This document shows, in pieces, positions 3,201 to 29,523 of a DNA stretch of 29,754 nucleotides (the stretch's first letter is position 1; each line of letters opens with the position of its first letter). The stretch is from Saccoglossus kowalevskii (lineage: Eukaryota; Hemichordata; Enteropneusta; Harrimaniidae): NCBI RefSeq assembly GCF_000003605.2, contig NW_003114461.1:197952-227705 (forward strand). Direction: 5' to 3'. The translations under genes and the position numbers were made by a program. Below the pieces are notes generated by a model that did no database searches, was not told the origin of the DNA, and was given only the letters and a program-made list of their open reading frames with translations.

Positions 3201-3596
3201 TGCCTTTGGCGCGAGGTTCGTGAGCAGATTTTCGTGCTGCCGCCTCTGTATAGTCAGTCGGGTTACGCACTTCTATTAGTTGCAACAATGCCCGGTGGTT
3301 GAAACTAGGTCATGGCGTGACGCACTGGGAAGATATCATAAAACACTCACAAAATCACAATAAAACGGGGAAGTGGTCGCATATTACGGCGTAGAAAACA
3401 TTGGGAATGAAAAATCGCTTAATACAAACGCCAAGGTTTCTAATCCTACTAGATGAACAGTCACCGGAACCAAAGCAATCATTTTGGCTTTTCCATTCAA
3501 ATAATCGGGACATTGACATGGATAGCAAAATGGACACCATTCAAAGAACAACGTCGTGGCGTCGTATATAAGCGAGACATCGAATAAAAACATTAA
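3200..3596. other. Spacer with no recognisable gene
   Basis: Mixed-composition sequence between the GC-rich repeat and MITE copy 3. Open frames on the minus strand here are short and resemble no known protein. Confidence 0.4.
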
Positions 3597-3752
3597 AGCG
3601 AGAGGGTCGTCACCTGCGCACGCGCGGGAATTGAGTCCCAAGCGACGAAAACATCACACGCTAAAACGCAAAGGATCATGGGTAGACAATTGTTTATAAA
3701 CAATGACACGCTATGACCATCTGACGCATGCGCAGGTGACGACTCTCCCGCT
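3597..3752 (+). mobile_element. Palindromic MITE, copy 3 (TTAA target site)
   Basis: A 156-bp copy with both ends intact: AGCGAGAGGGTCGTCACCTG on the left and CAGGTGACGACTCTCCCGCT on the right, flanked by TTAA at 3593-3596 and 3753-3756. It has the same orientation as copy 2 and is well conserved with it in the centre (GAATTGAGTCCCAAGCGA; CAATGACACGCTATGACCAT). Confidence 0.85.
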
Positions 3753-3994
3753 TTAAAACAAAATTAGCCTGGGTTCGAGTTCCGCTCAGAGCTACCGAGC
3801 TACCGAGCAAAACGTAAATAAAAAAAACCTGAAACATGTTAAACCCCCCCAAAAGAAATATTATGATTTGCGGGATTCTGAAAAAAAAAACGTTTCTCAA
3901 CTTGTCCCTTTTATTTAGTTTCAAGACGTAGGGGTATTCAAGATGGCTGCCCTATGTAGTAGATATCAGATTATGAATCACATTTAATTCATTA

Positions 3995-6684: not shown

Positions 6685-9600
6685 ATGGCAAGCAAAAAAT
6701 ATATAAAGAAGGACTATAATGGTTTTAATTTTCGCGGGTACATGAACCTTTTCATCTTCGGATCTCTTAACAAAGACTCGGCATTTCCCGACATTACAAG
6801 TACATTACAAGTACTCATCATTAATAAAATACATTTCACTTTTAAAATTTAGTTTGTAATATTAGATATGTTTTCGACAATAAAAAAGTTTATGATATCA
6901 AAATTCATACTGTGATAAGATATTGTCTATTTATATAACCTAGTTTATCATTATTTTTCAGATGAAATATTGAATGCAGTTAAAGACCATGTACTCCATG
7001 ATGGTCTACAAAGTAACCATAGCAACAATTTTGCGTACTTGTGCCCTGGTGGAGTTTTTAGTTCGGCACTCGCCAGCTACTTGGCCGCCTACACCAATCC
7101 TTATGTCGGTAAGCGTATAAATAAAGTTTGATTGAGTGTGATAGTCAGTTTATAGGAGCGCCGGATCAACAAGGCATATATAGTATGTCTTGGTAGGATC
7201 GTCCAATGCTGATATTGTAATGATTCACAATGTTTAGAAATTGATAGAATAATTTAGATTTGTCTTCGCTGTTGTCTGAAACAATTATATTTAAAATTGC
7301 CTTGGTATGACCTATTTTCATGAATGTATTATGTAAACCATATGGCGTTATTAAAGTGTGTACAACTTGTATTTTTAGATGAATGGCATATGTATTAAAA
7401 AAAATAAAATGGAGTATTGTGGAGAGTGTTTTCTTGTCGGTCCAAATCATTCGGTGGCCAGTAATTTGCTTCGGTAGATTTAGTGCAATCCAGGGTAATC
7501 ACAAACATACCAAACACGTATATTGTCCAAGAAACTGTTATAGTACTTTGGAGTATTTAAAGAGGTAAACACATGTTTTTTGTGTATTCTATGAACCCCC
7601 TTCTTGATGGGTATAATCACAGTCCCTCAAATATTATCCCAGTTGCGTCTTAACACATTGACTCTTAAGTTGTGCAGAAATATAAAAATGTTAATCTGTC
7701 AGAAGAAACTCATTGATTGTGGAGTTGGTGGCCTTTCAAACAAAATGTGGTCCGAGGGCTACAAGATCACGGTTAATAGCGAACCCGGGCCAGCTCTATC
7801 TGTTAAATAACAAATTGTTGTTTATAGATTATTACAATCATATGACTCTGTACATACAATGTTATATATATATTTCACAAAATATTATCTTTGTTCGTTG
7901 AGTAAATATGACAATGTCATATATTCTGACGGAATTATATATAAATCCACTGCGGCATATTAGTGTCTGGTGTACAGTAAATTTAACTGTATTTTTTGTG
8001 AATTCGTACATGTGGCTGATCTATTATTGAATTCCATAAATATAATATAAATACTTATATCTAAAGTTCATGTATCCATTTATTAGATTTTACTCCATGG
8101 CATTCGCCACAAACTTATGTAACCGGCGAAATGTTTTTTTTGCAAAGTTCCACCTTATGTTAATTTTGTAATTGAATGTTGAGTTCTTTAAGGGTATATC
8201 GGGATGATGAAGCTAGTCCAAGATCTTGACTATGGGAAGGTGCAAAATACAAATGTTATTAGAATAAAATATATGTTATTTCAGGGTCTTTTGAAACGAA
8301 TCCTGCTGGGGTACGAATGGAGCATATGGTAATCGACTGGGTAGCAGGGATGATGGGTTTCCCAGCAGGCTATGCAGGCAATATTACTCCCGGTGGATCT
8401 AATGCAACCCTTCTAGCCGTTACCGCCGCCAGAGAGAATATAAATGTCCGATGTGGTGATTACAATAGGTAAGATAATAATCGTATAATCGTAGAACTGT
8501 CTTTTAAACAGACAATTTTCCGTCCACTGCGAGAACTCGCATTAAAAACAGTATAAACAAATTTCATAGTGTATCAGTGACGTCATAACATCGAGAACGT
8601 TTTTCAGGGTATTTTACGCTCAATAATGTGGTCTACATATTTGATAATAGTAAATTTTGATGAAGTAAAGGAATCTTAACGCAATATCCCCCTCTCAAAG
8701 ATCAGCATTTCAACATTGAGCTGTAAAATAGAAATTTAAAATTCAAATCGTTCGATTTTATTTATTTTATTTATTAAGTATCAACAACAATGGTCAATCA
8801 CATTATGCCTTGTATTTCGTGTAGAGAAAACGGGGTTTATTTTCACCCGACTCACGGCACGTGACAAATCCGTAACGTGAGTACCACTAATGTCTATACC
8901 TATTATGTAACGTTTTTTCACAATCTACTCTAATCAGTCGTGTTCAGGCGACACCAAGCACGGGCAAGGGAGGCAAACTGAATTGAACTCTGGCAGTTCC
9001 CGGTTCTCGTTCGGCCCCGACCATGTGAACGCTTTGGAGATAATCTCCTGTTAATCGGTGCATATGATCGTTGGGAGGAGCAGTAGTTCGGTTCGATAGT
9101 ATGCTGTAGTGCTTACGCTACACAAAGTACGGTCCACGATGTGTGCATATCGGATAGACCCAATTGCGTTCACACACGGGAGGAAACATGTACAGTGGTT
9201 ACCACGGGCTAAGGAACGTCTAAGCTTGTTAAGAATATACACAAATCTTCAGTCATTTTAAGTATGATAACTCAGTACAGTAACTAGAAAGTTATACATG
9301 TTAGTTCTACGGTTATAAAAACAATACCAATGTAAATTCAGAAAGTACAGAATGTAGAATAACAGGAAGTAGCACAGAGTCATCGTCATTTCATTTTTTC
9401 ACGAGAACAATATCTCTTGATCGATGTGCTGGCATTTTTCATGTCAGAAAAGAAGAATATTTATGAATATAATAGTAATAATCTTCCAAATGAACAATGA
9501 ATACAATGATAGCATTTTTGGCGCTTAGGCGTCCGCACCTACTTCATTAGCTCATTCTAAGGCTCTGGAAAGGCTCTTAAAACGGGCCAGATTTAGGGTC

Positions 9601-11076
9601 TCTTAAACCGTGCTAAGCGTTCACGCATGTTTTCTTAGCACGAACACAACCCTGTTGAATCTGTAGCACCTTCACCCAGGATAGGACCCTTTTTATTATT
9701 GTAACCCGGGAAGGGTAGGACCTCGACCCCATCCAACAACCACCGTCAGATAAAGCCAAATATTAAAGCAAATAAGAATAGTTGTAACACGCACAATTCA
9801 ACGTCATATTTTCATTTTGAATTTCATCGAACTGAACTCTTGGGGGCATCGATATGTTTAATTGGCGAATGTACGAAATTGTGATTTATCGTAACCGTAG
9901 CAACCCACCATATTGGACTATTCTTTAGTTATTCATTATTAACTTTATTACATTTTAAACGCTAAATTAGAAATGTAAAATTTTCTGCACGGTTGTAATA
10001 AAGCTGTTAAAGACATATAATAAATACTGACTTGCGGACATTATTCCGTTAGCTTGTTAATAAAAATTACATAACTATAAACATACTGACGTCATGTTCT
10101 AAAGCTAATTGTTAAAACAAATCTGTAATACATGTTTCGAAACTGCGAGTAAAATGTCAGTTGGCTTAATTTCTATCGAAATTATTCCTTGATTAACATG
10201 CATGACTAATTATGTAAAATGCAAATATTATCTAACTTTTTAGGGTTATACGTAACAAATATCGAAGGATTGGCAAAAAGCAATTAATTATGCATAAAAC
10301 GAAGTTTTCTCTTATTCGGATGCCAATTATGAATTATATAAATGTGCACGTGACTACATCGCATTCTCCGAGATTACTAAATAACTGACGATGATATCCA
10401 CACTCCGCATTCGATTAATATTCTTATTGCTGTAAGAAAATATATGAATAATAATGTTGTACAACAATATATGATTATCGGTCTTTTATTTTAAGATATT
10501 TTTCCTCTACTAAATTTAGTATAAGGAAATAAAATAAATCACAATTATAGTATGACTAATATGATGCATGTTGTATTTCAGGTTGGTAGTGTACATTACA
10601 GACTGGACACACCAGTGTTTCCGTAAAGCACTATTTACTGCTGGATTGAAGGAAACTGTTATACGTAAAGTGCCCGTGGACGCTGAGTATAGAATGGATG
10701 TAAAAATACTAAAGGCACTAATTGCACAGGACATCGAGGTAAATTTATAGCCGTCCTTACTTTTGTAATAATTGTCAGATTTAAGAGAAGCTCTGAAAGA
10801 CTAATATTATCGCCATAAATCAATTTATATCACACAGGAAGAGCTTATCCCGTTTATGATTGGCAGTACCATTGGAACTGCTGTCATTGGAGCGGTTGAC
10901 GCAATTGGTAGAATAGCGGATGTCGCTAATGAATATGGTATCTGGCTACATGTAGATGCGGCGTATGGAGGATTTTTTGTTTTGGTGGAAGAACTGAAGG
11001 ACTACTTTAATGACGTATGCAGATGTGACTCGATAATTGTGGATCCGCATAAATGTATTACTACGAGTATTTTAAT

Positions 11077-11135
<59 letters not shown>

Positions 11136-12334
11136 TTAATCATATATGCTTGTGAATCTACAGCGTTGTTCATGCCGTTTGGTTATGGAATTTTCATCGT
11201 CAAGAAGGGAAAAATTCTGCAGTCCTGTTTCCGCCATGACAGCTTGTTTGTTACTACCATGCAAGATGAAGAAGAGTCCCCCGTTAACATTTCAATTGAG
11301 AGAACGAAACCATTCAGGTGAGAAGATTTTTAATTTATACGTCTAAACTAACCCATCACACGAGCAGACTAAATAATCAGATGAGATGATAACTGAACAT
11401 TCTGATAAAAGGACTAAAACTTCCATTTAAGACATTCATATTATGCAGGAAGATTAAGACTATCAGTCAGGTTGCTGACCCCACGATTAAAACTGAGTGT
11501 ACAATATGATATGGCTTAGATTTGTTTGCTGCAATGTGTTCAACATTGGCATCGTTGGCATTTCTTGGTAATTTACATATAATCAAAATGGCCGCCACTG
11601 TACAAAAAGGGCAAAACATAAATAACAAGGAAAGTCTAATACTCTCGTATCTTGTATACATGATCAATCAATTTTGAATCGTTTATACATTTATTTTAAT
11701 GTTTGTGTAAGTGCATGTGTACTAAGACTAAAGTTTATCTTCATACCAGGGCTCTGGGACTGTGGCTACCACTAAGACTGCATGGTGTTGCAGCATTCAG
11801 GCGTTGTTTGGAGGAAAAACTTTGCCTAGCACGATATATGTACAGGAGTCTGAAAGGTTAGATTTGAAAAATGATACTTGTCGTTTTTTGTTATCTTATT
11901 CACGTGGCGATGAGCTGATAATATTGCCTACATGCCTATATGCCGATTGTTCTTGTATGGTTCGATGTAGGCGGAATTGCATTTACTAAGATTAATAGAT
12001 TTAACTGATCAATTGATTTACCATATTTTATTTTATTTTTATTTTATTTTATTCAGAGATACCAGGATTCCGTGTCGGACCATATCCACAGCTAACCATT
12101 GTATTATTCAAGTACGACACCGGAAATGAAACCAGGAACAACGATATCAATCGTGAATTACATAACGCAATTTTGAAAGATGGTCACTTTTATATTTCCT
12201 CGGCAATTATAGACAATAATTTTTTTCTTAGAACCTGTATTCTAAATTCTCGTTCACATAGAAACGTTATTGACGAGTTTTTGTCTACCCTCAAAAAATT
12301 AACAACGTGTCTATTACAAACACTCGGACCATAA
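6685..12334 (+). CDS. PLP-dependent group II decarboxylase, bacterial/fungal-like subfamily, eight exons, 452 aa
   Basis: Exons: 6685-6799, 6962-7108, 8285-8468, 10582-10738, 10838-11054, 11164-11317, 11750-11856, 12057-12334. All introns are GT-AG, phases match, and the sum is 453 codons. The ATG has an in-frame TAG 12 bases upstream. Motifs: CPGGVFSSALA near residue 70, GNITPGGSNATLLA in exon 3, ring-stacking His at about 159 (TDWTHQCF), cofactor-nitrogen Asp at about 241 (WLHVDAAYGG), and Schiff-base Lys at about 273 (VDPHK, completed across intron 5 by SLFMPFGYG). The C-terminus has LWLPLRLHGVAAFR, then IPGFRVGPYPQLTIV and the DGHFYISS block. This is the pyridoxal-decarboxylase family (PF00282); the motif wording resembles the bacterial/fungal tyrosine-decarboxylase-like branch rather than animal DDC, HDC or GAD. 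The substrate cannot be read from sequence; an aromatic or acidic amino acid is likely. The exon 1 donor (AA|GTACAT) is the weakest call. AATAAA lies at 12574-12579. Confidence 0.9.
8469..10581 (+). other. Long intron 3 of the decarboxylase, with GC-richer inserts
   Basis: This 2.1-kb intron is AT-rich at both ends but contains GC-richer, low-repeat segments at about 8820-9230 and 9525-9740 that read like fragments of inserted elements. No RT, transposase or gene is recognised in them. The minus-strand frame at 9051-9242 resembles nothing known. Confidence 0.45.
11082..11133 (+). repeat. (AATC)n microsatellite inside intron 5 of the decarboxylase
   Basis: About thirteen uninterrupted AATC units fill roughly half of the 109-bp intron (11055-11163). 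The frame stays open through it, giving a false protein tail rich in N-Q-S-I. The real donor is AAAT|GTATTA at 11055, which restores the conserved VDPHK-S-LFMPFGYG junction. Confidence 0.93.
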
Positions 12335-15076: not shown

Positions 15077-18000
15077 ATGAGGCCATCGCGAAAGTGGCGA
15101 CGTTTATTGGTAGTTGTCATGGCGATTTTCGCAGTGGTTGTGATCATCGATGAATATGGCCAAACTGAATCGAAAGTTCGAGCTACGTGAGTACAACCAT
15201 TATTTAACCGTATATTATGATCCGTCGCTCTGTCATGGCCATCACATTATTATCTGTTTACGGGAGGTCCGATGATACATATACCGTAACGCCCAGTTTT
15301 AGTCGCATATTTCTCTCAATGTACAGGCATCACTGACCGACTTATCGTTAACTGAATAGGCGATAGAACCGTCCTAAATGGTTTACTACGTGTCTCATAC
15401 AATATGCCCGTTAACGACCGCCATTGCTGGTAAATATGATATACATGCAATTGTTAACGGGTCAGTGATTATCAACACATGTTGTAGCAATCTATTTGGT
15501 ATTTGCGACCTCGAAAAGCCGAAACACATGTGTTATTGAAATTACATGAATAATAAAGTTTTGTATTACTTAATAGGACATCGTTTGCTGAAATAGACAA
15601 GGCCGCAGCCGGAAGGGGTAAGGGTAACTGGCTTTTATTAGATTTCAGAGTTGTTATATATGGCGAATGTGTAATTAATTTATTATTCGTACATAGACTA
15701 GACACAGACACAGAAACCGACACAGAAAATGCATAGCATGAATCGTCAATTTGTCGCATTATCCAGGCAAATCAGGCACATCACGGGAAGCAAAATACTC
15801 GCGATACAATGGCCAGTGTGAAAATGCTGCACATTGAAGGGATTTCCCGCAAATTATGTATGACCTATAGCGTACCTTAACTTAGTTTCTTTGCGTTTAT
15901 ATACAAGTAATTGCAGACTATTTCGAGTTCGAATTAAAAAAATATGCTCTAAAAATTTCAGCTTCCGCTGGGACTCATAAAAGCAGCAATGGAGACACAA
16001 AACAGGTAAGTCGGACATTTTTCTTTTATTGAAGATACACTCAATAATGACTACACTTTATTTGGAAAATGGGTCACACGTTTACGGACTTTCAGGTAGT
16101 TCGTGAAATCAATCCTACTATATTTGAAAACGCCCAGCTAGCAGCAAGCAATTTGCATTTTGCTTTAGGCAAACACTATTGAGTGTGTATTTCGCTGACT
16201 ATCACCTCGATTTACAAAATTGCGACCACTTTCCATACTTTTCAAATTTATTCAGATAACTTGCACTGTTTTGAAAGTTTTTAATTCACTAAAGTACTAC
16301 AGGTTAATGGTTTGACGTCAACTGTTGCCTGGAGCAAATGTGACAATTCCTACTATAGGATAGACGTAACTAATGTGATTGCTTCGTTGCGGATGTCGTC
16401 TGCTGCCGAGTTGAACATGGCTATCTTGTTTACAAACGTATATAGTACAGTACAGTACAGTGCTTATTACGCAGTTTCTCGAACTGATTTTGAAGTGGTG
16501 CCATTTCGAAAAACGGTTATAAGTGGTTTTCCGTGTTTTGGAGTAACAGAAAAACACTGCGTAGTCACGTGTGGCCGTTGTTTGGCCAATCACATTACAT
16601 CACATCACATAATCTAGATATTGTAATATACGCTACAATCTCGCGAGAATGAGACATATCCCAGAGCCGTCATTGCGGGAAGAGGCGTGAATGTATACTC
16701 TTTTACACCTTAACAGACTGCATTTTTATTTGTTTTGTTTGCAATCTAAGAATACTCCTATGTAGCTTTCTCTGTTGTCGGGTATTCTCACTACATAGCT
16801 CCTAAATGAAAAGTTGTTTTAGCGTTATCAAATGAAAACACCATAATGACACAAATAATTACGCCATCAAACTGTTATTTCTCGTTTTTAAAAAGTGATT
16901 ATGACCTTTAAGTATCCTGGTCGTCACCTCGTATATAAATGACATCCCCACTACGGCACTACGTCATATGAATAATAATTCATGAACACGTCCGATTTGA
17001 ACAAACAAAATACACAAATCAAACTAGCGACAGACGAATTTATAACTATTTTGGCAATGGAATAATAAGGCTCTGTTTAGGCACTTTATTGTGATTCGTT
17101 ACTTTAGTTTCCTTTTTTGTAAGATATCTCAATCGCGACAAACGCTATTCCTTGTTTACACTATCAATATTCTTCTAATATTACAGGACTCTATGACGGA
17201 TATCAATGTATCGAAACAGGACAGCCAACCAGCGGTAGAACCAACCAGCGACCAAACCAATCAAAGATATCTGTTTCCGATATTCCCAAACAAAAAGGGA
17301 GCAGGAAATAACGTGCAATATCAAGCGTTTAGAAATGCTGCTGCATTTTGTCTTTTGTCAAATCGTACTTTAGTTTTGACGCCGTTTTTTAATCTGGGAG
17401 GGTACGTGCGCGATATAAGCAAGGAGGAACAGAACCCATTCAACGAGACGTTTGACGAAACAAACCTTAAGTCGCTTCTTCCTGTTACAACTGTTGAGAC
17501 ATTTCTTCGCCATTGTAGCGGGAATTTGACCGTGTTTAATTACATATGGCGTAATATGATGAGGCCTGTGCTAAGAAAGTCTGCTATGTCATCTGTAAGC
17601 GTAGCTTATCGGGATGTTTTCAACATAGAATTGCCAGATTTCGACGACACGATTCGTGAAAATAAGTACGAAATGACGATGAATTCTAATATCACATGTT
17701 TGTGCTTACTTGACTACTTCCCGAATAGACCCGCATATGACGACAAACTCGCTGATGCTTTAGGTTTGGTGAATGCACATCTAAAAAAGGCCCAATATAT
17801 ACGACATGCCGTCGACAGTGTGACGATGAGAATGTGCAACGGAAACTCATTTCTGGCTTTCCACTGGCGGAATAAATCAGGGGAAATGTAAGTATAAACG
17901 TGACATTTCCTTCATATGTTTTATTGCATACTTAGATGTTTGTTGCACTATAGTTGTCTTGTCCCATTCAACGTACACAACGCAAGAAATTAGAAAGCTC

Positions 18001-21919: not shown

Positions 21920-22385
21920 TTTATTGTATAATAATATGATACAAATCTACTAAACATGATAATAACCTACTAAATAAGATATCATCTTACTAATATACAG
22001 CCTAATTATATATCAATGTAATACAAATAACGTGTCTACAATATATATGATACAACCAAATGAATAAATGACATAAATCCTCTAAACATAATATGCAACT
22101 AACCTCCTAAATATGATAGCATACTTCTAATATACAGTAACAACCTAATCAATATACATATCAACCTAATTATATATTAATGTAATACCTATTATGTACC
22201 TGCAATATATATGATAAAACCCAATGAATAAAAAAATTACATAAATCCTCAATAAATGATTAAACCCAATAAATGAATAAATTATGTCATCCTACTAATA
22301 TATATAGTAACAACTTAATCGATATATATATATCAATGTAATAAATGCCATGTATCTACAATATATATGATAAAAATCCACAATT
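21920..22385. repeat. Minisatellite: about three degenerate ~160-bp tandem units
   Basis: The marker TCAATGTAAT...CTACAATATATATGATA recurs at 22013, 22177 (as TTAATGTAAT) and 22333, giving spacings of 164 and 156 bases. Other parts of the unit recur in step, such as CTACTAATATA(C/T)A, ATGAATAAA and ACATAAATCCTC. A partial unit seems to begin near 21920. Confidence 0.8.
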
Positions 22386-22389
22386 AGAT

Positions 22390-23155
22390 ATATAACAAAT
22401 CTTAAATATATGATTTCAACCGACTGAATTATATAGAGAGAATATATTTCTTCATGAAAGTAAACAGATGAATATGATTTTATGTCATAATTATTATCCA
22501 AAGCCAAATGGCGATAAAAAACAAACGGAACAGTGACTCAATAATGAAATTTAATTACAAAACTAATCACACCTCTATTTGAGGAAATGTACAAACCATG
22601 CCCTATCTATAGCAGTTGAGCATTAAATTCCTTCACATTTTGCAGCTCATTTTATATAAGGAAATCAAGTACATACAACTAGTTAGTTGATTACTTAACA
22701 GAAACATTGTAAATGTGAATCGTATTGAGATAAATAGAACGCAGAAAATGAACACACATTATAATGCTGAGCACTAAAAATTGCAAATATCATAATTTAT
22801 CAACCATTGAAGTAACGGATTTTAAATTCATATCATAACAAATATCACCGATAAACTTTTAATTTAGAACTATAAACACACGACAAATCAAAAAATGTCG
22901 ACTTAAGCGAAGGAAAATTAGGGGAGATCGCGAGATCGTGTCTAAACAAATAACTTCATTACGAAATCAATTGCCGAGACGGATCCAGTTTCTACAACAC
23001 AAAATGGTTTCTTGTACCAGTTCCTGTCAATACTTTAAAAATACAATAATATTGAAGGGACATTATGAATAAAATATTCATTGCTCAACCAACCGAACAG
23101 GTCTGTATCCGAAATTATTGAAGTAAATATTCGGGGAACGACATATAATTGAATT
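22390..23155. other. AT-rich spacer downstream of the Ebony-like gene
   Basis: This is the 3' side of the minus-strand Ebony-like gene. No clear AATAAA on the minus strand was found close to its stop at 23156, so the 3' end is not placed. No other gene is seen. Confidence 0.4.
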
Positions 23156-26100
23156 TTACAAATGTTTAATCAAGAAATGAAAGCGATGATCAGCAGGATG
23201 AATGTTACTGAAATGTTTATACCCATCATATTCATAATCACGCAACAATTTAGATGAACTTAGTTCGACATATCCAATAGAGAGTGCTGCAGCAATAGTA
23301 AAATCATGGTTGTAAATTCCACACATACCAAGACGACCAGCAAGTCGATTTATTTCTGCAAACGAATGTAATATTAGAATCAGAACTAACACTCGTCATT
23401 GGTAGTATATTTAGTATAATGATAAATATCTTGATATAAGTTATGAAAAAAAACAAGTCTACAAACTTAAATATTTTACTCAACGACTTGGAGCAGAACA
23501 ATTGACGGAAAGTAGACGATCGTAAACTTTGAGTTAATTATTGTTGTGCCTTGGATCAACATGGTTTGTCTTGTAAACTGTGGGAATGTGGTTACTCTGA
23601 ATTATTCGTTATTTAGAACGACAAAGTATGTATGTCTTACCCATGTCAACAAGTTTCTGAATACGTGGAACTAATTCAATATCTACTTCATCACTCACAG
23701 CTGATACACCAACATGTAACCACTGACTTGGTGCGTTCACTTGAACCAATCTTTTGATTTCCTCAATCGCTGTATTTAACGCGTCCGGGAGGGCTTGTAG
23801 AGGCAAACAATTACCTAAAGTTTCATCCTGAAGTCTGTTACTGCTCATAAGATCTTCATTTTGGGAAACTGCCACAATGCGTCGATCACTTTTTCGATAA
23901 ATCAGGAATGAAAACTCCTTAGAATGCAAAAGTAAATGTTCGAAATAAGTCATAAGCCAATCAATGGCTCGTTGACGATCTACATTCAATGACGCAATGA
24001 GTGGATTTGTATCAACAAAACGAATAGCAGCCATCAAACACGCATTATCGATGTCTTCTTTAGCGACAACATTAATATATACTATTTCATAATCTTCATC
24101 TATGTCACTTTTTGTCGTCGTTTTCTTTGTTGGGTCAATAACATCTTTCAAACATTCGGCTGCAAAGAAGTCCATCATTTCCACAGTTAAACCACCTGCT
24201 CGAAGTTTCATAATAACCTCCACGGCATTTACTGTTGAAAAAAATGGACATACACATTTCTAGATATTCATTTAGTTATTTATTATATCAAAAATGTTCG
24301 TCAATTCCGGTTTTAGCCTCAGTTGTATCACTTCTACTCTGAACTTATTCAGGATTGCATTTGATTCGGAGAAACAAAGTTCACAAATAACATTTGTGTT
24401 TGTAATCTTCTAATCATTGTCATACGTACATGAATTACCGCCAAGTTGAAAATAATTATGTTTCAGAGATACGTCTCTCTCTGTCAGATTTAACACTCTA
24501 GCTACTGCAGAACGAATGATTAATGCTTTGAACGAGTAATCATTTTCATCTGTCTTCATTTCCACGCGAAATGCACTTTCTTTGGCGAGGTCACTTTTGT
24601 TTATCTTACCTAAATAAAAAGTTAAAATTAATATTGTTGCATATGATTGTTTAGAATCCGTCATAGCACCAGCTATATTTCAACAAAATAAATAATTCAT
24701 GATAATATTTATTATTATACATCTGTCACCTTGACGCCTTAAGTTGCATTATGCCCTAATTTTGCGGTATTGCAATTGGTATTTGCATTGTTCCATATTA
24801 GGATATGCGCATTCAAAATATGGAATGATTGTGCGCGTACACAAACAAGTTCACTAAATTTGTGTTGATTTCGGCATTTCCATGACGTATCTTGGAAGGA
24901 AAAGATGAATAATAATAGTAAGGATATTGCGAGGATACTGCAAAGTATGCACTCAGACAGTACGCGTATTGTTCGATATCGATTCCCCTGTCTTCGTGCA
25001 TACTCTGCACTATCCTTGTAATAATCTCAGAGTACAACAAATGTCATGTGCACAACAAATTAATAAGTCAATAGTTAATCATGTCAGAACATATTGTATT
25101 ACATAACACAAAATCCATTATTACTCACCGTTTGGTAACAATGGGAAGTTGTTAACAGGAACAATGGTAGGAATCACAGTCGAAGGCAATATGAACTTTA
25201 ACTGTTGATACACTGATTCTTGTTTCCATTCCTTGACACCATCCACAGGTTTACAATATGCCACCAATGTTTGTTCTACTTCATCACGGAACACAACCAC
25301 GACTTGTTCCACTTCTTTAATATCACAAAATGCCATTTCTATTCCATGAAAATTAATCACATTATCTGTTCGACCTTCATACATCAGCAGTCGCTTTCCA
25401 GTGGCTTCACAGTGTATCAATTTCATGAAATCACCAGACCTACACATCACTTTGTGTTCGTTATCTGTTTCAAATGGATTACTTATAAATTTGTCTGAAT
25501 TCTCAGATGAATTCAGGTAGCCATATGAAACACTAGGCCCGCTGATATAAGCCATACCTATTTCCCCGATGTTAACAGGCTGCAGATCTTCGCTCAACAA
25601 GTATATGTTGCTGTTACAAGTTGGTAAACCACAACTCATTTGTTTGTAGGGTATTGTTTTGAAATAATTACAATTAATGGTCACAGAAGTGACATCGCAA
25701 AACTCAGTTGTACCATAAATGTTAGAAAGGTTGTGTGTTGGAAGTATTGAAAAGAAATCAGAGGCAAGTTTTTTAGTCAACTCTTCCCCTGTCACAGCGA
25801 ATGTGTGATTTTAAAATCTGTTTTCCGTCAGCTGACTTCACTCGCAATACATTCAACATGGTTTTTAGTTGAGTTGGAACTAAAAGGATCCATGTTATTG
25901 CATGTATATTTAGAAACTGAATGAACAGTTCTGAATTTACAACTGTGCTTCTGTCAGCAACAACTACTGGGAGTCCTTTCAGGAGGAATCCAAATAATTG
26001 TGTTGTTGAATCTACAAAGTTTAGTGATGCTATCCAACAAACAACTTCCGTTTTGCTGAAAGTGAAAGAATCCCAAAGTGCCCTACAACGGCTTAGTATA

Positions 26101-26720
26101 TTTCTATGAGACTTAATGACACCTTTTGGAACCCCAGTGGAACCAGAAGTATATAATACACATGCAGCTGCATCGGTGTTATTAGCTTGACATTGGTCTG
26201 TTTCTGTTGGAACGTTATCATCAAATTCCACCATTCTTTTTTGAAGATCAACTAATAAAAGGTAAGTCGGAGAGCAGACTTCGTTTGGTGTGAACTGTAA
26301 CCCAGTCTTGCTTGATTCAGTTATAACACATACTGGATTTGCATCACCAATCATATGTCGGAGGCGTAATAGGGGATAACTTGGGTCAAGTGGGAGATAT
26401 GAAAAACCTAATTTGAGAATAGCAAATATCAATATGATTACATCATCACTTGGATGCAAATGCAGGCCAATAGTTGATGAAGTATTACATTTGAATGTCT
26501 TCATCGTATTCCTAATAACAAGTGCCATTGCATTAGATTTCTTATTTAGCTGAGAGAAAATCAATTTACTACTTCTGTATATTACTGCTGTCTTGTCTGC
26601 ATCTTCCATTTTTGCTTTGTATTCGAGGACACCATGCAGTGTGGATGATGGCATCCCATATGGTGCAGGTACCATCTGTCCTCGTATGATACTTGCATTT
26701 TTATCTTCCATTAGAGCCAT
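23156..26720 (-). CDS. Ebony-like A-T-C' mini-NRPS (beta-alanyl amine synthase family), four exons, about 853 aa, one frameshift
   Basis: Minus-strand exons: 26720-25129, 24609-24430, 24231-23641, 23355-23156; GT-AG, all phase 1. Start MALMEDKNASIIRG (ATG 26718-26720, context AACAATGG). The adenylation domain has A3 YTSGSTGVPKG (residues 190-200), the pocket stretch LNFVDSTTQLFG with Val236-Asp237, A5 NIYGTTE, A7 RSGDF, A8 YEGRTDNVINFHG, and the A10 Lys in PNGKINKSDL, whose codon follows intron 1. The thiolation domain has YFQLGGNS|LNAV, the pantetheine Ser sitting at the second intron. The C-terminal ~290 residues lack HHxxxDG, as in Drosophila Ebony, whose amine-selecting domain has an acetyltransferase-like fold. 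Predicted reaction: ATP-activated beta-alanine-type acid, held as a thioester, is passed to a biogenic amine in the cytosol. A net +1/-2 frameshift lies at about 25796 between A4 and A5; everything else is intact, so a sequencing indel or a young lesion is likely. Ebony is 879 aa. Confidence 0.88.
24931..25017. repeat. Inverted repeat (21-bp arms) in intron 1 of the Ebony-like gene
   Basis: GAGGATACTGCAAAGTATGCA (24931-24951) pairs with TGCATACTCTGCACTATCCTT (24997-25017) with three mismatches around a 45-base loop. It lies inside the 519-bp intron 25128-24610, which also has TA-rich flanks. It could be a small MITE or an intronic RNA hairpin. Confidence 0.6.
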
Positions 26721-27359
26721 TGTTACCAGCAAATCTAGAAGATACAATGGCATCTATAAGTGTGTTTTATTTTCTTTGTGAAATGTCACTATGATTTCCC
26801 TACCTAAATTTAACTTTCATTCAAAGTTTCAAAAAGAAGCAAGATTGAGTAGATCAATTTGAGATTGAGTAATATTGTTTTGGTGTCACTCATTCGTTTG
26901 TGCGTGTGTAAGTAAAATAAATCCTAAACTATAGATAGATTCAGCCGGGATTGCTCTTGCATAGAGACTGTCATATTGACTCATTTTGAACAATACAGGG
27001 TGTAGTTTGGGAAATTATACACTCTTTTAGTTCTCTGGATACATATTTTTGCAATATATGTTGGCAATCTCTCGACTGTGCACTGTATTGTTTACTTCAT
27101 TTTGTTATCGTCATCTATGTTGCGTGATTCAGTCGTGGTATTATGTCAGCTATTGTTTCCTAGATAATAGTTATATTTCATCATGACCATTAAAAAGCAT
27201 TTTAAATCTAAGCGATATTTTAGTCTGGTTAAGCAGTCCGCTTAAAAATGAGTTAAACTCATTCATAGACGTGAATTGACGCAAGGCACTCCTTTTGTAG
27301 CTGTTCGTGTATAGGTTCATCGGGTAGTAATTTAAGCAATGTGATGAATATTGGTTCAA
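26721..27359. other. Upstream region of the Ebony-like gene
   Basis: This is the 5' flank of the minus-strand gene. A possible splice acceptor (ATCTTCTAG, at about 26735-26743) lies just before the start codon, so the 5' UTR may contain an intron. The in-frame ATG at 26753 would add eleven residues but falls on the far side of that acceptor. No TATA box is evident. Confidence 0.35.
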
Positions 27360-27727
27360 TGTTCTGACTGTCCTGTTGTTACATCACTCTACTAGCCACA
27401 GTTCATGTCGGAAAATTGAGCTTGATTACAATTTAGGATTCTGACTGAGATTTAGCCAGCCAATGAGATTGATTTAATTTCAACCAATCAGCTCCTTTAT
27501 CTTTTCACCAATCATGTACAAGGCCATATTCATTGTAACCATTCATGAACAAGGCCAATATTTACTTTGATAATATAAATAGGAGACGAAACGTCTCTTC
27601 TTCAGTTCGTTTTTGGTTCGTTTTGTTCGTTCATGGTTCGTTCATAGTTCGATCAATAAAGTCTTCTATTACAGTCCATACGCGGTTTATTCTTCCATTC
27701 CTGAACTTGAACCTACTCTTTTTAACA
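27360..27727 (+). mobile_element. LTR-like block with CCAAT boxes, TATA box and AATAAA
   Basis: The block starts TGTTCTGACTG and ends TTTTTAACA. In between it holds three CCAAT boxes (27460, 27484, 27508), an imperfect duplication of TCATG(T/A)ACAAGGCCA (about 27514 and 27543), a TATA box (TATAAAT, 27574-27580), a small hairpin GAGACGAAACGTCTC (27583-27597), GTTCGTT repeats, and AATAAA (27655-27660). This order fits U3-R-U5 of a solo LTR. No matching target-site duplication is seen, and the same parts would also fit a gene promoter. Confidence 0.45.
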
Positions 27728-29523
27728 ATTCCCACAGTTCATAACTGCTTGTATCGATTGGGTTTATTTGGGCCGTAATATGCAAGAGTTAACGCACTAA
27801 ATAGTGGCTGATTTTCCTTTGTATAAGCAGGTGTTGTGCGGTACTGCACGACCGTGAGGGACCCACTAGTTAGAAGTTCGTTTAATGGGGTCATTGAATC
27901 AGTGAATCCTGTACGCACTGGAGTTCTTGTACATTTATTGGTTTTTGCCATTTTGACAATTGTCTTTTCTTTACGGCTTTCATACCGTCTTTATTGGACA
28001 TGTTTATGTCACTTTGTCGCCACCTGACGTGTATTCCCTGACACGAATACCCAATCCATTCTCTTCAATATGCCTAGTCTTACATCGTGTTATGCCTTGT
28101 TTTGTCCGGGTATGAGAGCATTATCATGAAACACAACTACACCTTTGATTCAATTTAGAAGATCCGCCATTAAATTTACCTGGTCTTGTCACTCTGACGG
28201 AAATACATCTGGAGTTATGAATGTTGTTATTTTGCATCTTTTTTTATGTAATTCTGTTTTAGTATCTGGACCTTGCATTTGACGTCTTAAAAACACTATC
28301 ATACTAATTTGGACGTAATATTCCACTGTATAGAGAACATATTCCTCATGTTTAATTGATCCTTGTTCAGTTCGATATATATGAGCATCGATCACATTCG
28401 CATTTGGTAAGACCTTTCTGTCGGCTCGGCCATTTTTTCTACGGTTCCCACTCCTTCCATACATTTCAGTTTTTGTTGGTAACAATGGAACTAGGATGCG
28501 GCGGGCGACACTTGCGTGGAATGTGGCAATATACTCGTGCATATGTTTTCGTACAGACCCTCTTTTATTTAAACTAATTTAAGATGATTGCTCAGTCTCA
28601 ACTGTAGATTATATTTCTGTGTCGTATGTATATAAGTAACTTTGGGGGTTAACTTGAATTTCATCTGGAGTGGTGAGACATTATTTTGTCAGCTATGCCG
28701 ATAACTAGTATGTCCGTTTTGCGAGCGTCTTTCTGATCACAGTAATCACAATGAACCATCACTTTGTACAAACATGGTGTGTGCTTCTGCTGGTTCAATG
28801 TTTTGTGTGTGTTGACCAAACATTTCAAGCTCCTTTTAGGTTTTAGGTTGAAGTGAAACAAAACTGAAACAAAATATTTCACTTTCACGACGCATGGTGT
28901 ATATAAGTGAACTGACTTAGATTTCGCCATTGTCCTTATTTAGCTTTTTAAGGTGGTCGGTTTTTTGTTGGTTTTGATTACATTATTGTCTATATACATC
29001 CTATTATTTTTAACTTTATAAAATTCTGCCAATCTAAGCTTCGCGCACACACATTTCACGTTTCACCCATTTTTAGTGACCCCCCCAAAATTATGTTTCC
29101 AATAAATCAGACAAATTTGTTTTAAAATTCATTTGTTGAACTACGTGTACGGTTATTCGTATAAGATAGCAATGGGAGAGTGATGGATGTTACAGCCGAA
29201 AAAGTGGTTCTTGAAAAGCTGCGTACCTGTTCGGTACTGGCCTTCATTAAGTACGATTTTACGGACGACTCATACCGCTGACGGGTTACTTTTTTTGTCA
29301 GATTAGTACTTAGTTGTGCAGACGCATTGATTGGTATATATTTTGGACAATCCAGCAGCATTAATAATATTTTTCATTAGTGAAAATCATACTGTGAGCT
29401 GGATCAAGGGACAAGAGTTATTGTGAAATAATTCTGTAATTTGTACACAAACCATTTGCATGCATTTCAAAATTCAAATTTCAGTGTCAATATTCAATAA
29501 CGTAAATTGATACTTTGTTTAAG
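27728..29523. other. Stretch with no supported gene
   Basis: Several minus-strand frames of 70-117 residues occur. The longest, 28189-28542, contains VIDAHIYRTEQGSIKHEEY, faintly like the start of a lipid-binding PX-type domain. No flanking splice sites or conserved follow-on were found, so I do not call a gene. The frames at 27739-27951 and 28661-28930 resemble nothing known and could be retroelement debris next to the LTR-like block. Confidence 0.4.

Follow-up and report, generated by a model that had tools for sequence, protein, structure and literature searches.

Beta-alanyl-amines represent an inactivated form of transmitters in flies, and in flatworms they act as signals in reproduction (PMC11214079, excerpts). 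Genes of the Ebony type are already known in insects, flatworms and several other animal groups. In planarians, nrps and aadc are required for beta-alanyl-tryptamine (PMC11214079, excerpts), and the flatworm relatives share Ebony's clade (PMC10531068). We describe here a further, well-supported member in the hemichordate Saccoglossus kowalevskii, within a stretch of 29,754 nucleotides (the window; contig NW_003114461.1, positions 197,952 to 227,705 of the forward strand), where a four-exon gene runs on the minus strand from position 26720 to 23156. The gene very probably encodes, or recently encoded, a single-module nonribosomal peptide synthetase (NRPS) of the Ebony family; that this copy works in spite of a frame break in exon 1 is presumed.

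The window gene resembles Drosophila Ebony (C-terminal domain in PDB entry 6dym and four more entries) in domain order, length, a shifted pocket Asp, the C-terminal fold and the grouping of the adenylation (A) domain. It differs in its pocket residues, in the frame break of this copy and in the presence of paralogues, and identity is 26% over 871 columns with a provisional Ebony sequence. The flatworm enzymes (planarian Smed-nrps, schistosome Sm-nrps) are similar by description, being Ebony-related enzymes with A and carrier (T) domains in non-arthropod animals; they work with an amino-acid decarboxylase and their product is beta-alanyl-tryptamine (PMC11214079, excerpts), whereas for the window gene a beta-alanyl-amine is predicted. 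A preliminary description of this DNA had proposed an Ebony relative with the order A, T and C-terminal amine-selector domain, the last of these as a guess, and this proposal is supported by Pfam matches to the A and T domains, by the A-domain tree and by profile and fold matches of the C-terminal domain. Three introns and the frame break have to be added to that description, and its remark that the role of Ebony relatives is poorly described outside arthropods is dated because a role has been shown in planarians and schistosomes (PMC11214079, excerpts).

Gene structure and adenylation-domain kinship

Exon 1 (25129..26720, minus strand, as are all parts of the gene) encodes the A domain and is supported by Pfam AMP-binding, which matches two parts of it (E 1.4e-43 and 3.3e-11), by a splice donor and by matches to Ebony and the paralogues; its start codon at 26720 is assumed, the same frame being open from 26753. 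Exon 2 (24430..24609) encodes a linker and the first part of the T domain and ends in LGGNS, exon 3 (23641..24231) encodes the end of the T domain and, according to the fold search, most of the C-terminal amine-selector domain, and exon 4 (23156..23355), identified by paralogue matches and by alignment to Ebony with hhalign, encodes the end of that domain and the stop codon. Introns 1 (24610..25128), 2 (24232..24429) and 3 (23356..23640) were placed by their GT..AG ends and by the reading frame, and the spliced frame is uninterrupted from the frame break to the stop. The T domain, formed by the end of exon 2 together with exon 3, matches PP-binding at E 3.3e-12 after splicing, and the GGxS-type serine is present as GGNSL. 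For open frames of 326 and ~225 codons, the chance probability per start point is 7e-11 and 1e-7, respectively, at the local base composition.

The readable frame comprises 303 + 546 codons, in agreement with the suggested closeness in length to Drosophila Ebony with its 879 residues. The N-terminal resemblance that had been pointed out also holds, as the pattern S-I-(I/L/V)-(R/K)-G is common to the window gene, its intact paralogue and Ebony (provisional Ebony sequence). Likewise, a condensation motif of the form HHxxxDG or H(4 residues)DG is found in none of the six frames of 22001-28500, as had been noticed for the region downstream; in this the window gene departs from a canonical NRPS elongation module, which has a condensation domain with HHxxxDG. 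Bacterial contamination was considered and rejected in view of the introns, the intron-bearing paralogues and the 672-kb contig, which belongs to a 572-Mb assembly that includes a 17-kb mitochondrial contig (the assembly as searched has 572,110,611 bases in 4830 contigs).

A tree of A domains had been named beforehand as a possible refutation. In a tree of 83 rows, the window gene, its intact distant paralogue and Ebony lie together on one side of a branch with a Shimodaira-Hasegawa-like approximate likelihood ratio test (SH-aLRT) support of 99; the 80 comparison rows are A domains encoded on bacterial genome contigs (79) and on an IMG/VR contig (one). The comparison rows are not a random sample: one pattern scan gave 481 relatives, and apart from the IMG/VR row the set consists of 79 of the best 80 among these. 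The one left out is L001, which carries F-D-V-S and whose A domain is truncated at the end of its contig. The same Ebony grouping appears with support of 100/99 in a tree of 40 rows, in which six of the comparison rows were chosen and 31 drawn at random and the two longest branches (L080 and L075) were left out; the window gene is a long branch in this tree. All three animal sequences read F-V-D-S at the A4 motif, but F-V-D occurs in only 2 of the 80 other rows. These two rows are L036 and L073, which belong to Kibdelosporangium and Xenorhabdus and read F-V-D-G and F-V-D-S; in the 40-row tree they sit closest to the animal Ebony group, a placement that could reflect either common origin or convergent beta-amino-acid pockets.

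The C-terminal domain, the substrate pocket and a proposed mechanism

The C-terminal domain, encoded by exons 3 and 4, has ~216 residues. No Pfam family over cut-off matches the C-terminal domains, and no NCBIfam family is over cut-off among the matches listed. The Ebony C-terminal domain, in contrast, is matched by profile (hhalign), and in a fold search of the PDB Ebony is the best match of the C-terminal fold, in line with a GNAT-fold condensation domain like Ebony's. The domain is akin to the arylalkylamine N-acyltransferases. Insect arylalkylamine N-acetyltransferases (for example, PDB 3te4 and 4fd7) are stand-alone acyl-CoA enzymes, whereas the domain of the window gene is fused behind A and T domains and, in alignments made by eye, has Asn in place of their Glu47. 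This residue lies in K-D-E-P-L in dopamine N-acetyltransferase; the equivalent segment, again by eye, reads T-N-P-L (Asn) in the window gene and its tandem copy, K-E-P-L (Glu) in the distant paralogue and N-K-A-D-L, without Glu, in Ebony. The window gene thus appears to lack the Glu47-type feature of arylalkylamine N-acetyltransferases.

In A domains for alpha-amino acids, Asp235 and a C-terminal Lys are highly conserved and hold the amino and carboxylate groups (PMC11355689, excerpts). Read by alignment with GrsA numbering, the pocket of the window gene is V235 D236 T239 L278 A299 T301 I322 C330 D331 K517, where position 330 hinges on a one-residue gap; the same ten positions read V D S M V T I G D K in the distant paralogue and V D A V V S F G D K in the provisional Ebony sequence. 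The shift of the pocket Asp by one position, reported in the preliminary description, is seen here as V235-D236, as in Ebony, and lies in the A4 motif N-F-V-D-S-T-T-Q-L-F-G (approximately 25986..26018, minus strand). A comparison of all ten residues had also been suggested, and it agrees with Ebony at V235, D236, D331 and K517 and departs from it at the other six. An Asp shifted to 236 marks A domains for beta-amino acids. Because the pocket Asp is at 236, as opposed to Asp235 in alpha-amino-acid A domains, a beta-amino acid is well supported as the predicted substrate, with beta-alanine as the most likely acid.

By analogy with Ebony, the A domain would adenylate a beta-amino acid and hold its amino group with the shifted Asp; beta-alanine is the likeliest such acid. 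The acid would then pass to the phosphopantetheine on the T-domain serine in GGNSL, and the C-terminal GNAT-fold domain would bind a free biogenic amine and form the beta-alanyl-amine, the T domain replacing acyl-CoA as the supplier. The product would be released without a classical condensation or thioesterase domain. We infer beta-alanine, the amine, loading, transfer and catalysis from kinship with Ebony, and the most likely reaction of the enzyme is the coupling of beta-alanine with an amine messenger.

Paralogues and rival explanations

A search of the same genome with exon 3 finds two further places at E <= 0.001. One is a tandem copy ~20 kb off and 53% identical, in which the end of the A exon, the T domain and the C-terminal exons are readable, and loss of its A domain was considered but dropped because the remainder of that domain would fall mostly in unreadable DNA; the other, on another contig and 29% identical, has its A domain in one intact exon with S-F-V-D-S. 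In all three copies exons end after LPNG and after GGNS, and the last intron is shared as well. The distant copy has 455 residues from G-K to GGNS, compared to 60 in the window gene, including a charged linker of ~400 residues (27% Glu; L097:2936-4366) between its A and T domains. Between the window gene and the tandem copy, the ratio of nonsynonymous to synonymous substitution rates (dN/dS) is 0.42 for the A/T part (bootstrap 95% limits 0.24-0.75; 143 codons, only 49 of them from the A domain); for the C-terminal part it is 0.59 (0.40-0.85). An earlier count by exon gave 0.36, 0.25, 0.77 and 0.42 for exons 1 to 4. The C-terminal part might have evolved faster than the A/T part, but the difference is not significant (85% of 1000 bootstraps).

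Several results weigh against the Ebony-family reading of this locus. Plain phmmer finds no kin of exon 3 in the PDB, a profile of the three paralogues places Ebony first at only E 0.4 with an unrelated chain at 0.49, direct blastp between the C-terminal domains of the window gene and Ebony reaches only E 0.008, and single-sequence fold prediction gave no usable model. The Ebony A-domain row is a provisional sequence, although the Ebony C-terminal domain of the same provisional sequence is identical to the PDB at 210/210 positions. The pocket differs from Ebony's at 239, 278, 299, 301, 322 and 330. Finally, the frame is broken inside exon 1 at 25799..25826 (minus strand), between overlapping stop-to-stop frames at 25773-26753 and 25121-25810, among short homopolymer runs including TTTT and AAAA. 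Homopolymers are common sites of assembly errors; either such an error or a recent mutation may explain the break.

The frame break, the two paralogues in the genome and the dN/dS of 0.77 for exon 3 in the first count would all suit a decaying copy, a pseudogene whose role would have passed to one of the paralogues, tandem or distant. We regard this as a real but minority prospect: the lesion at the homopolymers is the single one seen in the spliced frame, the splice sites are intact, and dN/dS is below 1 in both parts, with bootstrap limits below 1. Somewhat less probable is an enzyme of the Ebony family with a different beta- or gamma-amino acid as its substrate, or with an acceptor other than a biogenic amine. 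The six differing pocket positions speak for it, as does the Glu47-equivalent, where the window gene by eye has Asn and the distant paralogue Glu, whereas the flatworm relatives, in the same clade as Ebony (PMC10531068), use beta-alanine (PMC11214079, excerpts). That the gene is some other A-T protein merely resembling Ebony, such as one of the AASDH or aminoadipate reductase type or a bacterial NRPS fragment, is very improbable. The A domain does match those of many NRPSs, the top PDB entry being linear gramicidin synthetase; neither tree includes AASDH or aminoadipate reductases; and the row nearest to Ebony by plain identity is bacterial (L021, 37%). Against this, Ebony is the top PDB match of the C-terminal fold, tree support is 99 to 100, and introns occur both here and in the paralogues of the same assembly. 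In a scan of viral contigs, exon 3 found no match and the A domain found one A domain.

Neighbouring genes and wider significance

A gene for a pyridoxal-phosphate-dependent decarboxylase, with seven exon cores at 6919..12298 on the plus strand, lies in the same window and is supported by Pfam PF00282 over cut-off on two exons, by paralogue alignments and by the PDB. Its nearest PDB entries, 5o5c of desferrioxamine biosynthesis (DesA, E 1.5e-41) and the bacterial decarboxylase 4obu (7.2e-38), score better than the aromatic and acidic decarboxylases of plants and animals. Seven more places in the genome match the gene, and three of these share a contig. With at least 8 matches (its own included), a 40-kb span and 572 Mb, the chance of such a neighbour is ~6e-4 per NRPS locus, an estimate for a partner that was picked after the fact. 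The linkage is only suggestive because of that choice and because an exon for a GDP-fucose protein O-fucosyltransferase (O-FucT; 17046-17891, plus strand) lies between the two genes. The decarboxylase could be a candidate supplier of the amine, as AADC is for the planarian enzyme (PMC11214079, excerpts). A small animal biosynthetic gene cluster, in which the decarboxylase would supply the amine and the tandem Ebony-type synthetases would cap it with beta-alanine, is nevertheless improbable in our estimate because of the intervening exon and because the arrangement is known from a single genome. Among the literature titles listed, none concerns a decarboxylase gene beside an Ebony-type gene, a weak negative given the limited coverage. 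If the cluster were real, it would point to signalling by beta-alanyl-amines in an animal outside both the arthropods and the flatworms.

Elsewhere, look-alike peptides (KRLPMSLCVL..., by eye) occur in several frames at 1738-2133, 2261-2461 and 3593-3763 and at L094:301-648, and suggest a dispersed repeat. The mitochondrial contig C4830 (17,037 bases; L107, L108) carries, by eye, cox2, atp8, atp6, cox3, nad3, nad4L, nad4, nad5 and cob on one strand and nad6 and cox1 on the other, an order unlike the usual one of insects and nearer to that of hemichordates and chordates.

An Ebony-type gene with two paralogues in another animal provides a testable case for the wider beta-alanyl-amine signalling suggested in PMC11214079 (excerpts). 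The three copies, which differ in the Glu47-equivalent and of which one has a long charged linker, are useful for learning how the amine-selector domain picks its amine.
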